47,979 nucleotides of DNA from the NCBI GenBank assembly GCA_001295935.1, contig LJHX01000085.1, positions 1-47,979 on the forward strand, read 5' to 3'. This document shows positions 25,262 through 27,170 of the stretch, piece after piece. Position 1 is the first letter of the stretch. The number at the start of each line of letters is the position of its first letter. The position numbers and the translations under genes were made by a program. The stretch comes from an alpha proteobacterium AAP81b. Lineage in GTDB: Bacteria > Pseudomonadota > Alphaproteobacteria > Sphingomonadales > Sphingomonadaceae. The notes under the pieces are model-generated. The model was not told where the DNA came from, made no database searches, and saw only the letters and a program-made list of their open reading frames with translations.

Positions 25262-25291
25262 AAAAGGCCGCCGGGGTTTCCCCCGGCGGCC
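25262..25291 (-). terminator. rho-independent terminator of the 21-codon cistron
   Basis: On the minus strand an 11-bp GC stem (GGCCGCCGGGG with its complement, 25266-25291, loop of 4) is followed by TTTT (25265-25262). It begins 36 bases after the stop codon of the small reading frame at 25328. Confidence 0.75.
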
Positions 25292-25327
25292 CGCATTGTC
25301 ATCCGGCCTCGAAAGGCGGTGCCTTCG

Positions 25328-25393
25328 TCAGATCGTCGCGATTCCGTCCGCGACCACCAGCATTTCGAAGCCAGTCATGAAGCAATGAGACAC
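25328..25393 (-). CDS. 21-residue peptide with an exceptionally strong ribosome binding site
   Basis: Starting at a GTG at 25391-25393 this frame gives MSHCFMTGFEMLVVADGIATI. AGGAGG lies seven bases upstream, and the whole leader GAAAGGAGGTGATCCA is complementary over 16 bases to the standard 3' end of 16S rRNA. A short hairpin (GTGTT-CAAC-AACAC) lies just before the ribosome binding site, and a good terminator follows the stop. I do not recognise the peptide. Its middle (GFEMLVVADGIATI) is hydrophobic but too short for a normal membrane helix. It could be a small functional peptide, the precursor of a modified peptide, or a leader. It is divergent from the MOSC gene. Coding status is inferred from signals, not homology. 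Confidence 0.6.
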   Translation of the reverse strand: MSHCFMTGFEMLVVADGIATI

Positions 25394-25409
25394 TGGATCA
25401 CCTCCTTTC
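25394..25409 (-). promoter_or_regulatory. extended Shine-Dalgarno, 16-base anti-SD complement
   Basis: The plus-strand text TGGATCACCTCCTTTC equals the canonical 16S rRNA 3' end, so the minus-strand RNA is fully complementary to it. Ordinary ribosome binding sites in this window match 4-6 bases. Confidence 0.75.
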
Positions 25410-25449
25410 GTGTTGTTGAACACCGCGGACAATGTCATGCGCTTTCGCC

Positions 25450-26103
25450 ATGATTGCAAGCGGGCGAATCGAGGAAGTGCGGGTCGGCGTCGCGGCGCCG
25501 CTCGATGGCACCGGCATCGTCACCGGCTATCGAAAATATCCCGTGGCGGGCGGCCGGGTGGTGCATGAAACGGGCATCGAAGGCGACGTCCAGGTCCACA
25601 AAAAGGTACATGGCGGACCGGAAAAGGCGGTCTATGCGTATCCGCTGGCAGGCTACGACCTCTGGCGCGCCGAATTTCCCGATCTGGCGCCGCGACTCGG
25701 CCCCGGCGCCATGGGCGAGAACCTCGTCGTCGCCGGGCTCGACGAAGCCAGCGTCTGCCTCGGCGACCATATCGCCTGCGGCAGTGCCGTCCTTCAGATC
25801 GCCCAGCCGCGCCAGCCTTGCGACATCTTCGCCGCCAGCCTCGGCACGCCCAAGGTCGTCCGCGCCATGGCGCGCAGCGCGCGCTGCGGCTGGTATCTCC
25901 GCGTCCTCCAGCCCGGCACCGTCGCCGCCGGCGACGCCCATGACGTTGTCGAGCGCCCCAATCCCGACTGGACGATGGCGCGCTTTGCCGCGCTGATCGT
26001 CGCCAAGGCGCCTGCCGTCGGCGACCTCGCTGAAATCGCCGCGCTGCCCGGCCTTACTCGGCAATGGCAACTTTGGGCGGCACAGCGCCTCGCGTCCGCC
26101 TGA
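25450..26103 (+). CDS. MOSC domain-containing protein, YiiM-like
   Basis: A 217-residue MOSC-domain protein. Seen: GIEGDVQVHKKVHGGPEKAVYAYP near residue 45, GPGAMGENLVVAGLDEASVCLGD near residue 85, and QIAQPRQPCDIFAA carrying the conserved cysteine that in this family is thought to bind sulfur or molybdenum cofactor. YiiM-type proteins detoxify N-hydroxylated compounds using molybdenum cofactor; the assignment here is by domain, not proven. The start at 25450 (MIASGRIEEVRVG) fits the family; an in-frame ATG at 25432 is the alternative, and neither has a good ribosome binding site. Its 3' end overlaps the convergent membrane-protein gene by 50 bases. Confidence 0.88.
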   Translation: MIASGRIEEVRVGVAAPLDGTGIVTGYRKYPVAGGRVVHETGIEGDVQVHKKVHGGPEKAVYAYPLAGYDLWRAEFPDLAPRLGPGAMGENLVVAGLDEASVCLGDHIACGSAVLQIAQPRQPCDIFAASLGTPKVVRAMARSARCGWYLRVLQPGTVAAGDAHDVVERPNPDWTMARFAALIVAKAPAVGDLAEIAALPGLTRQWQLWAAQRLASA

Positions 26104-27085
26104 CAGCGCGCGCCTCGCCGATCAGCAGCACCGCGACGCCAGCCAAGAACGGCACATAGGTATAGACGATCCGCCACATCACCAGTGCCGCCAGCACGCC
26201 GGCCTTGTCGCTATCGCGCAGCAGCGCGACGATGACGAGTTCGAACACCCCGAGGCCCCCCGGCGCATGGGCGAGCGCGCCCGACACCATCGCGACGCCA
26301 TAGATGGTCAATACCCCCAGCAGCCCCGGCCCCGCATCGGGCAGCAGCAGGAACAGCGCCCCGCCGGCAAAGGCCAGATCGATGATGCCGATGCCGATCT
26401 GCAGCACGGTCGAGCCGGCATCGGGCAGCGCGAAGCGGTAGCGCCACAGCTTGAGCGGCCGCCGCCGTACCGCCGCCAGCCCCACCCAGGCGATGACGCC
26501 GCCGAGCATCAGCGGGCCGAGCAGCGCCTCGAAGGGCCCGGCCAGCGCCGCCGGCAGATAGGCGGCGACTGGCCGCGCCAGATCGGGGTTGGCGACCAGC
26601 CCCAGCCCTGCCACCGTCACGACGCCGAGCCAAAAGGTCCAGCCGCACATCACGACGATCATCGCGATATCGGCGGCCTTGACCCCGGCGCGGCTGTAGA
26701 TGCGGTAGCGCACGGCGCCGCCGGTGACGACGGTCAGCCCCAGGGTATGGCTCATGGTGAAGCTCGAGAAGGACGCCGCCGCCATCGTCGACCAGGGCAG
26801 GCGATAGCCGAGATGCCGCGTCGCGAACCAGTCGTAACCGATCAGGAAGACATAGGACATCGCCGCCGACAGCGCCGCGGCGATGAACAGGTGCGGCGGC
26901 GTCGCGCGGATGTCGGCGATAACGTCGGCGAGGGTCACCTGGCCGGCGATCGTGGTGATGCCCCAGACGGCGAGCGCCAGGATGACGATGCCGAAGGCAG
27001 CGCCCGCCCAGCTGTGCCAATTGGCGCGGGGAGCAGGCGGGGCCGGGTCGGCGGGCAAAGCGGGGTCGGACAGAATCGGCTCCAA
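26054..27085 (-). CDS. lysylphosphatidylglycerol synthase TM-region/UPF0104 (YbhN-like) membrane protein
   Basis: A 343-residue integral inner-membrane protein with about eight helices, for example WAGAAFGIVILALAVWGITTI near residue 30 and VLAALVMWRIVYTYVPFLAGVAVLL near the end. HTLGLTVVTGGAVRYRIYSRAGV and ALAHAPGGLGVFELVIVALL are signatures of the flippase-type TM region found in MprF and YbhN. Role in lipid handling is inferred from the family. No ATG lies near the N-terminus; the TTG at 27083-27085 (giving LEPILSDPALP) is the first plausible start after the tRNA-Ile gene, which ends 12 bases upstream on the same strand. The start is uncertain. Confidence 0.87.
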   Translation of the reverse strand: MEPILSDPALPADPAPPAPRANWHSWAGAAFGIVILALAVWGITTIAGQVTLADVIADIRATPPHLFIAAALSAAMSYVFLIGYDWFATRHLGYRLPWSTMAAASFSSFTMSHTLGLTVVTGGAVRYRIYSRAGVKAADIAMIVVMCGWTFWLGVVTVAGLGLVANPDLARPVAAYLPAALAGPFEALLGPLMLGGVIAWVGLAAVRRRPLKLWRYRFALPDAGSTVLQIGIGIIDLAFAGGALFLLLPDAGPGLLGVLTIYGVAMVSGALAHAPGGLGVFELVIVALLRDSDKAGVLAALVMWRIVYTYVPFLAGVAVLLIGEARAVRRTRGAVPPKVAIAE

Positions 27086-27097
27086 ATTTGCCGCCGG

Positions 27098-27170
27098 TGG
27101 GCCCGGAGGGACTCGAACCCCCAACCTAGCCGTTATGAGCGGCCAGCTCTGACCATTGAGCTACAGGCCC
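27098..27170 (-). tRNA. tRNA-Ile (anticodon CAT)
   Basis: A 73-base cloverleaf: 5' GGGCCTG pairs with CGGGCCC, D-arm GCTC/GAGC, anticodon stem GGCCG/CGGCT around loop CTCATAA (anticodon CAT at 27135-27137), T-arm with GGTTCGAGTCC. The loop and stems match the Ile2 type whose C34 is changed to lysidine by TilS and that reads AUA, not initiator or elongator Met. The 3' CCA is not fully encoded (ACCG). The YbhN-like gene follows directly. Confidence 0.9.

Follow-up and report, generated by a model that had tools for sequence, protein, structure and literature searches.

A candidate translated small RNA of Alphaproteobacteria, homologous to CC2171, with a reading frame conserved in length and not in peptide

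What kind of gene is a 21-codon reading frame that stands by itself behind an exceptionally long match to the 3' end of 16S rRNA, and does selection act on its peptide, on its RNA or on the passage of the ribosome? The question is raised by a locus in the window, that is, the whole stretch of 47,979 nucleotides analysed here (contig LJHX01000085.1, assembly GCA_001295935.1, of the alphaproteobacterium AAP81b, Sphingomonadaceae). The initial annotation had described a compact, free-standing cistron with a 16-base match to the 16S 3' end and a terminator of its own, and had offered as products an abundant micro-peptide, a RiPP-like precursor or an RNA that titrates ribosomes. The unit is real, and all the parts described are present on the minus strand (Table 1). 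We propose, with a probability of about 0.58, that it is a self-contained gene encoding a folded RNA of ~160 nt, a CC2171 homolog that is also translated and whose function would lie in ribosome traffic and not in the peptide.

Table 1. Parts of the element and their positions in the window
Feature	Position	Strand	Basis
5' hairpin GTGTT-CAAC-AACAC, includes the widely kept CAACAA	25410-25423	minus	sequence
GAAAGGAGGTGATCCA, 16-base complement of the usual 16S 3' end	25394-25409	minus	sequence
Extended Shine-Dalgarno, 17-base 16S complement counting the G of GTG	25393-25409	minus	core common to relatives
GTG and 20 codons, frame MSHCFMTGFEMLVVADGIATI, stop TGA	25328-25393	minus	stop and length conserved, peptide not
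Helix P1, 5' strand, CATTG, codons 3-4	25383-25387	minus	changes in step with 3' strand
Helix P1, 3' strand, ATGACAATG	25294-25302	minus	covariation and minimum free energy (MFE) fold
Hairpin GTCGCG...CGCGAC within the reading frame	25335-25354	minus	97.9% of cells paired; 4/6 pairs changed on both sides (24 sequences)
Long body helix, 5' strand (approximate), within the reading frame	25355-25374	minus	MFE fold, z -4.10; 67.7% of cells paired in the genus
Long body helix, 3' strand (approximate), past the stop codon	25303-25321	minus	MFE fold, genus pairing
Intrinsic-terminator-like hairpin, then four T	25266-25292	minus	88.5% of cells paired; 7/12 pairs changed on both sides
Putative promoter: CTTGC (25456-25460) and TGACA(T) (25432-25437), 18 apart	25432-25460	minus	genus conservation
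Full RF01867 (CC2171) match	25265-25417	minus	57.8 bits, model 1-159 of 159, E 1.4e-11

Layout, relatives and family of the element

Read along the minus strand, GGAGG and GTG are spaced by 7 bases, and the terminator-like hairpin begins ~35 bases past the TGA. A strict terminator scan listed none at the locus, where the T tail consists of only four T, yet the terminator helix is kept across the 24 same-genus sequences. Of the putative promoter, CTTGC is present in 23 and TGACA in 22 of these 24 sequences, and the 18-base gap recurs in 20 of the 21 that carry both; a scan for the sigma-70 consensus gave no match to it. Since ATCAT, the complement of a possible start region of the neighboring MOSC gene, is kept in just 15 of the 24 loci, the conservation of CTTGC suggests that it belongs to the promoter of the RNA. 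With the start listed for it, the MOSC gene overlaps this putative promoter (25432-25450), and an in-frame ATG at 25450 is the likelier start. A 5' hairpin of at least four pairs, the stem letters of which vary, is found in 20 of the 24 sequences, and CAAC or AACA lies within 14 bases upstream in 80 of the 92 elements defined below.

The 16S 3' end against which the match was read is the one that we take to be usual, and it agrees with antisense-16S matches in relatives. That the 17-mer is its complement could mean that the element is nothing but the antisense of the end of a 16S rRNA gene. However, an Rfam scan of the window found no rRNA gene over its cut-offs and two tRNAs only, and the flanks are unlike those of the antisense-16S matches, which read ...GATCCAGCCGCAGG; we therefore rule out this artefact, the chance of which is next to nil. 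The 16-mer has a single place in the 3.45-Mb genome, the element itself (its reversed control has none), so the genome's own 16S end must be absent from the assembly in that form.

Every one of the 23 same-genus relatives searched gave a DNA match, and in each of them the element could be read, so that the combination of parts is beyond chance, as had been claimed at the outset. Matches in 31 of 74 other genomes are mostly short, and some fall beyond the leader, for example in the region of the terminator. At least 120 stretches were found with the pattern GGAGGTGATCNNRTGTCTCAY; by their titles, read by eye, 116 of those listed are alphaproteobacterial (including Sphingomonadales, Caulobacterales, Hyphomicrobiales, Acetobacteraceae and Azospirillum), three are labeled only as Proteobacteria, and one, from Micromonospora (L159; 533-codon frame), is probably a chance match. 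The pattern AAAGGAGGTGATCNNRTG, made up of the Shine-Dalgarno match and start codon only, occurs in 54 of 289 class genomes and in 46 of 299 genomes of a phylum sample. By a count made by eye, all 46 lie among the 86 own, same-family or same-class rows; none of the remaining 213 phylum-sample genomes has the pattern, and its reversed control gave zero matches in both samples. Two copies per genome were seen in Sphingomonas naasensis (L072 and L140), in Sphingomonas sp. Leaf21 (L138 and L165) and in G159; each of the two named strains has one MSHC-type and one MSHG-type copy, which suggests an old duplication of the element in sphingomonads.

In a permissive Rfam scan, the element aligned with RF01867 ("caulobacter sRNA", CC2171) over the full length of the model, and since its 57.8 bits fall short of the gathering score of 75 bits, we treat the unit as a CC2171 homolog below the formal cut-off and not as a formal member; this link to a described RNA family is absent from the initial annotation. 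The likeness extends to the core GAAAGGAGGUGAUCCAGUGUCUCAUUG, which is identical, and to the RF01867 architecture of a long helix closing with CAUUG-CAAUG followed by a terminator helix; the 5' hairpin of the same-genus forms is an addition relative to RF01867. G159, from the same family, scores 68.9 bits, and 10 of 18 wider loci scanned, drawn from the at least 120 pattern loci, pass the cut-off. Among the 289 class genomes, 61 match RF01867 at E<=0.001, nine of them over the cut-off, and six of the 61 have two or three matches (count by eye); among 14 control genomes, only Caulobacter vibrioides has a match. In the accessible text of two papers, Rfam 15 lists one added covarying pair for CC2171/RF01867 (PMC11701678), and a candidate sRNA of Mesorhizobium huakuii from a prediction study is assigned to RF01867 (PMC5596092). 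A literature search on CC2171/RF01867 returned no described function and, within a coverage that excludes the original report and most subscription papers, no statement that the CC2171 RNA is translated.

In the window, the gene upstream is a divergent MOSC gene (PF03473) and the one downstream a convergent enoyl-CoA hydratase gene; across the 24 loci of the genus, the former occurs in 23, likewise divergent, and the latter in 10, some loci ending early (counts by eye, with the duplicate L001 left out). A short frame with hairpins and a terminator behind it would fit a leader peptide or attenuator for an adjoining gene, and a same-strand cluster does lie downstream, at ~120-220 bases in the nearest examples, in 14 of the at least 120 loci. 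However, the window offers such an attenuator no co-directional downstream gene, given the orientation of its two neighbors, and among the 25 clusters listed no same-strand downstream one is commoner than this one; we rejected this explanation as very improbable.

Other features of the surroundings deserve mention. In Sphingomonadales, many MSHG-type copies (L084, L123 and others) lie mostly 70-260 bases 3' of a same-strand gene. The cluster upstream of these copies, built by single linkage and including shadow frames, touches 45 of the at least 120 loci, and two of its products that were scanned resemble small secreted proteins and have no Pfam match. In the window, the listed start of a lysylphosphatidylglycerol-synthase-like frame (26054-27124, minus strand) falls inside a tRNA-Met gene (27096-27170), so that the frame probably begins further downstream.

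Reading frame and peptide

For the frame tests, 180 sites were reduced to 151 distinct elements, of which the 146 with TCTCAT as codons 2-3 were used here and for helix P1 below; the five dropped (L118, L179, L186, L187 and L234) have frames of 20-26 codons, and the Micromonospora stretch was never within the 151. In 97.3% of the 146 elements, the frame meets its first stop at codon 14-26, compared with 13.7% and 23.3% for the other two frames and with a mean of 17.6% (maximum, 26.7%) in dinucleotide shuffles. The misses, all retained, are L105, L137 and L152 of Azospirillum (57-59 codons) and L148 (33 codons). Such shuffle controls overstate independence, since the elements share descent, and a set of 65 representatives less than 60% identical, which mends this in part only, gave 95.4%, versus 16.9% and 20% when the other frames are read and 18.3% on average in shuffles (maximum, 29.2%).

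The same was found when the peptide was ignored altogether. The AAAGGAGGTGATCNNRTG places in the class (55) and phylum (47) samples, with 8 shared, yielded 92 distinct elements picked by ribosome site and start, and 88 of them (95.7%) have frames of 14-35 codons, a range reached by the other frames in 30.4% and 28.3% and by the shuffles in a mean of 30.4% (maximum, 47.8%); for the narrower range of 14-26 codons, the figures are 81.5%, versus 21.7% and 14.1% in the other frames and 20.3% in shuffles. Of the four exceptions, L207 meets the end of its contig after 16 codons, and the rest have 39, 56 and 57 codons. The frames end in TGA (36), TAA (36) or TAG (19), and codon 2 encodes Ser in 83 of the 92 elements through four synonyms (TCT, 63; TCG, 12; TCA, 5; TCC, 3). 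Within the genus, the frame measures 63 nt in 23 elements and 78 nt in one, after an in-frame gain of 15 bases, while all three stop codons are used (TGA, 20; TAA, 3; TAG, 1) and the length of the spacer between the stop and CAATG falls in each of the three phases.

These comparisons show that start, stop and frame length are under selection, as of a frame selected for translation, and that the predicted initiation site, with its match of 13-17 bases to the 16S 3' end, is conserved. Rfam types RF01867 as an sRNA gene, in keeping with a non-coding regulator in which GGAGGTGATCC would pair with CCUCC-bearing RNAs, whether as a titrator of the 16S 3' end or with anti-Shine-Dalgarno sRNAs of the alphaR8/MmgR/SisA type, and in which the frame would be incidental. 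The strong conservation of an in-frame stop and of frame length across the element family argues against an incidental frame, and we give such a regulator a slim chance.

Longer frames with a signal-peptide-like start, of 56-59 codons, follow the Shine-Dalgarno match in the three Azospirillum elements L105, L137 and L152 and also in L200 and L275. After this start comes CSxSH in L105, L137 and L275, CSPNH in L152 and neither in L200. These frames represent either a different gene that has the same leader or a take-over of the small frame that is specific to a lineage. In L142, from Azospirillum oryzae, the frame has 26 codons instead.

Conservation of the frame in relatives, which the initial annotation had put forward as a check, thus holds for start, stop and length, but the substitutions past codon 4 are not protein-like. 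Over that part, 18 same-genus sequences give a non-synonymous/synonymous ratio of 0.93 and 44 MSHG-type sequences one of 1.36; the means after column shuffling are 0.955 and 0.932, respectively, and 51 and 97 of 100 shuffles do not exceed the observed value. Because these two groups were chosen by length (21 and 18, respectively), the conservation of the stop is drawn from the tests on 146 and 92 elements. Neither the 18 nor the 44 sequences show purifying selection of the peptide past codon 4, although restraint of synonymous sites by RNA structure may mask a weak peptide constraint. The peptides of distant relatives share little except Ser2, and a Pfam scan of the 21-residue peptide found no match. 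An abundant micro-peptide is left unsupported by these results, as is a RiPP-like precursor; the three neighbors scanned were MOSC, enoyl-CoA hydratase and a lysylphosphatidylglycerol-synthase-like protein, with no RiPP-modifying enzyme among them.

Folding of the frame body

The RNA of the window element has an MFE of -77.4 kcal/mol (z -4.10), and 1 of 200 shuffles is as stable. From 24 same-genus sequences, RNAalifold proposes 39 pairs, 18 of them changed on both sides. When the fold of the window element is mapped onto the genus alignment, 22 of its 50 pairs are changed on both sides and 80.0% of the cells pair, compared with 35.3-51.2% after sliding the partner. The structure played no part in making the alignment, but was itself derived from one of the aligned sequences. 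Among five covariation measures, four beat all 500 shuffles, whereas 67 of the 500 equalled or exceeded the fifth, which counts further pair types.

The best cross-family evidence for the predicted fold comes from helix P1, whose 3' partner was sought within 150 bases past the stop in the 146 elements. CATTG at codons 3-4 is accompanied by CAATG in 80 of 85 elements, CATGG by CCATG in 52 of 52 and CATCG by CGATG in 6 of 7, and two single variants are without an exact partner. As controls, 12 of the 85 CATTG elements have CCATG and 13 have CGATG past the stop, and 2 of the 52 CATGG elements have CAATG there. Because codons 3-4 co-vary with bases past the stop, codon 4 (Cys, Gly or Arg) tracks the RNA helix. 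Thermodynamic folds also leave codons 3-4 less open than when the body is shuffled (mean unpaired, 0.22 versus 0.40). Taken across relatives, the comparison shows a predicted helix between codons 3-4 and the pre-terminator bases which, together with further helices, would fold the body of the frame.

Other tests of the fold were less favorable. The long body helix pairs in just 67.7% of cells across the genus. The Shine-Dalgarno bases are no more open in the thermodynamic folds of the 146 elements than in 60 shuffled-body controls (unpaired, 0.37 versus 0.39), so an exposed landing site is unsupported. A simple helix test of codons 2-8 against the pre-terminator bases gave p<=0.05 in just 14 of 42 terminator-bearing elements, and for the window element it chose another helix, with a p of 0.38.

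The behavior of codon 4 also bears on whether the element is an ordinary small mRNA, the 18-26-residue peptide of which would act by general properties (charge, hydrophobicity, short contact with membrane or ribosome) and so tolerate change. Such a peptide would fit the conservation of start, stop, length and Ser2, and a TWI-A-S-like stretch recurs in many peptides outside sphingomonads. Yet the non-synonymous/synonymous ratio is around 1 or above and no lower than in column shuffles, the character of the peptide differs between groups, and codon 4 follows RNA pairing, so that we consider this explanation unlikely.

A proposed role in ribosome traffic, and known systems

Since start, stop and length are kept while the peptide is not, we suggest that the visit of the ribosome matters over its product. 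Our best reading is that the element is a translated sRNA or small mRNA in which the property under selection would be ribosome loading, a short run and release, and not a defined peptide; an RNA that engages ribosomes, which the initial annotation had suggested in the form of a titrator, comes close to it. In our working model, a 30S subunit would be captured by the long Shine-Dalgarno match, the ribosome would run over ~20 codons, opening P1 and the body helix, and it would leave the RNA at a guaranteed stop, short of the terminator. Loading could thereby switch the RNA between closed and open forms, with an effect on how stable the RNA is or how accessible its 3' half becomes; alternatively, the RNA might tie up initiating 30S subunits. 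The broader idea of an alphaproteobacterial RNA family in which passage of the ribosome is selected, by near-maximal Shine-Dalgarno capture, some 14-35 codons and an assured stop, and the peptide left free, serving as a sensor of ribosome availability or as a 30S-capturing RNA with a fold, and hence a stability or pairing, set by translation, is tentative, and we rate it as somewhat doubtful.

If true, a class-wide RNA selected for ribosome capture would bear on how free ribosomes are sensed or buffered. The comparative evidence for translation of CC2171 members, with length and not peptide under selection, also shifts what tests of CC2171 should address. Literature searches by the letters of the peptide returned unrelated papers only, and the accessible text of PMC4117421, PMC11005374, PMC5521070, PMC4842269, PMC2245857, PMC7566282 and PMC5082802 leaves the element unmentioned.

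Three known systems invite comparison, each as described in the accessible part of its source. In Sinorhizobium meliloti, where 33% of 54 new sORFs sit on annotated sRNAs, rnTrpL/peTrpL is, like the element with its predicted translation, a small RNA with a short frame; peTrpL, however, is a functional peptide from a leaderless frame (PMC10117765), whereas the element combines an extreme Shine-Dalgarno leader with an unconserved peptide. Extended Shine-Dalgarno initiation in Staphylococcus aureus similarly involves extended motifs and small frames, some of them over sRNA annotations, but these motifs occur species-wide (PMC13009471), whereas the strict pattern AAAGGAGGTGATCNNRTG has one place in 53 of 54 positive genomes of the class sample and in 45 of 46 of the phylum sample. 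Finally, alphaR8/MmgR/SisA are, like the element, conserved alphaproteobacterial sRNAs; they carry a motif with an anti-Shine-Dalgarno signature (PMC12559287), whereas the element bears the Shine-Dalgarno side, and they are a possible pairing partner of the element.
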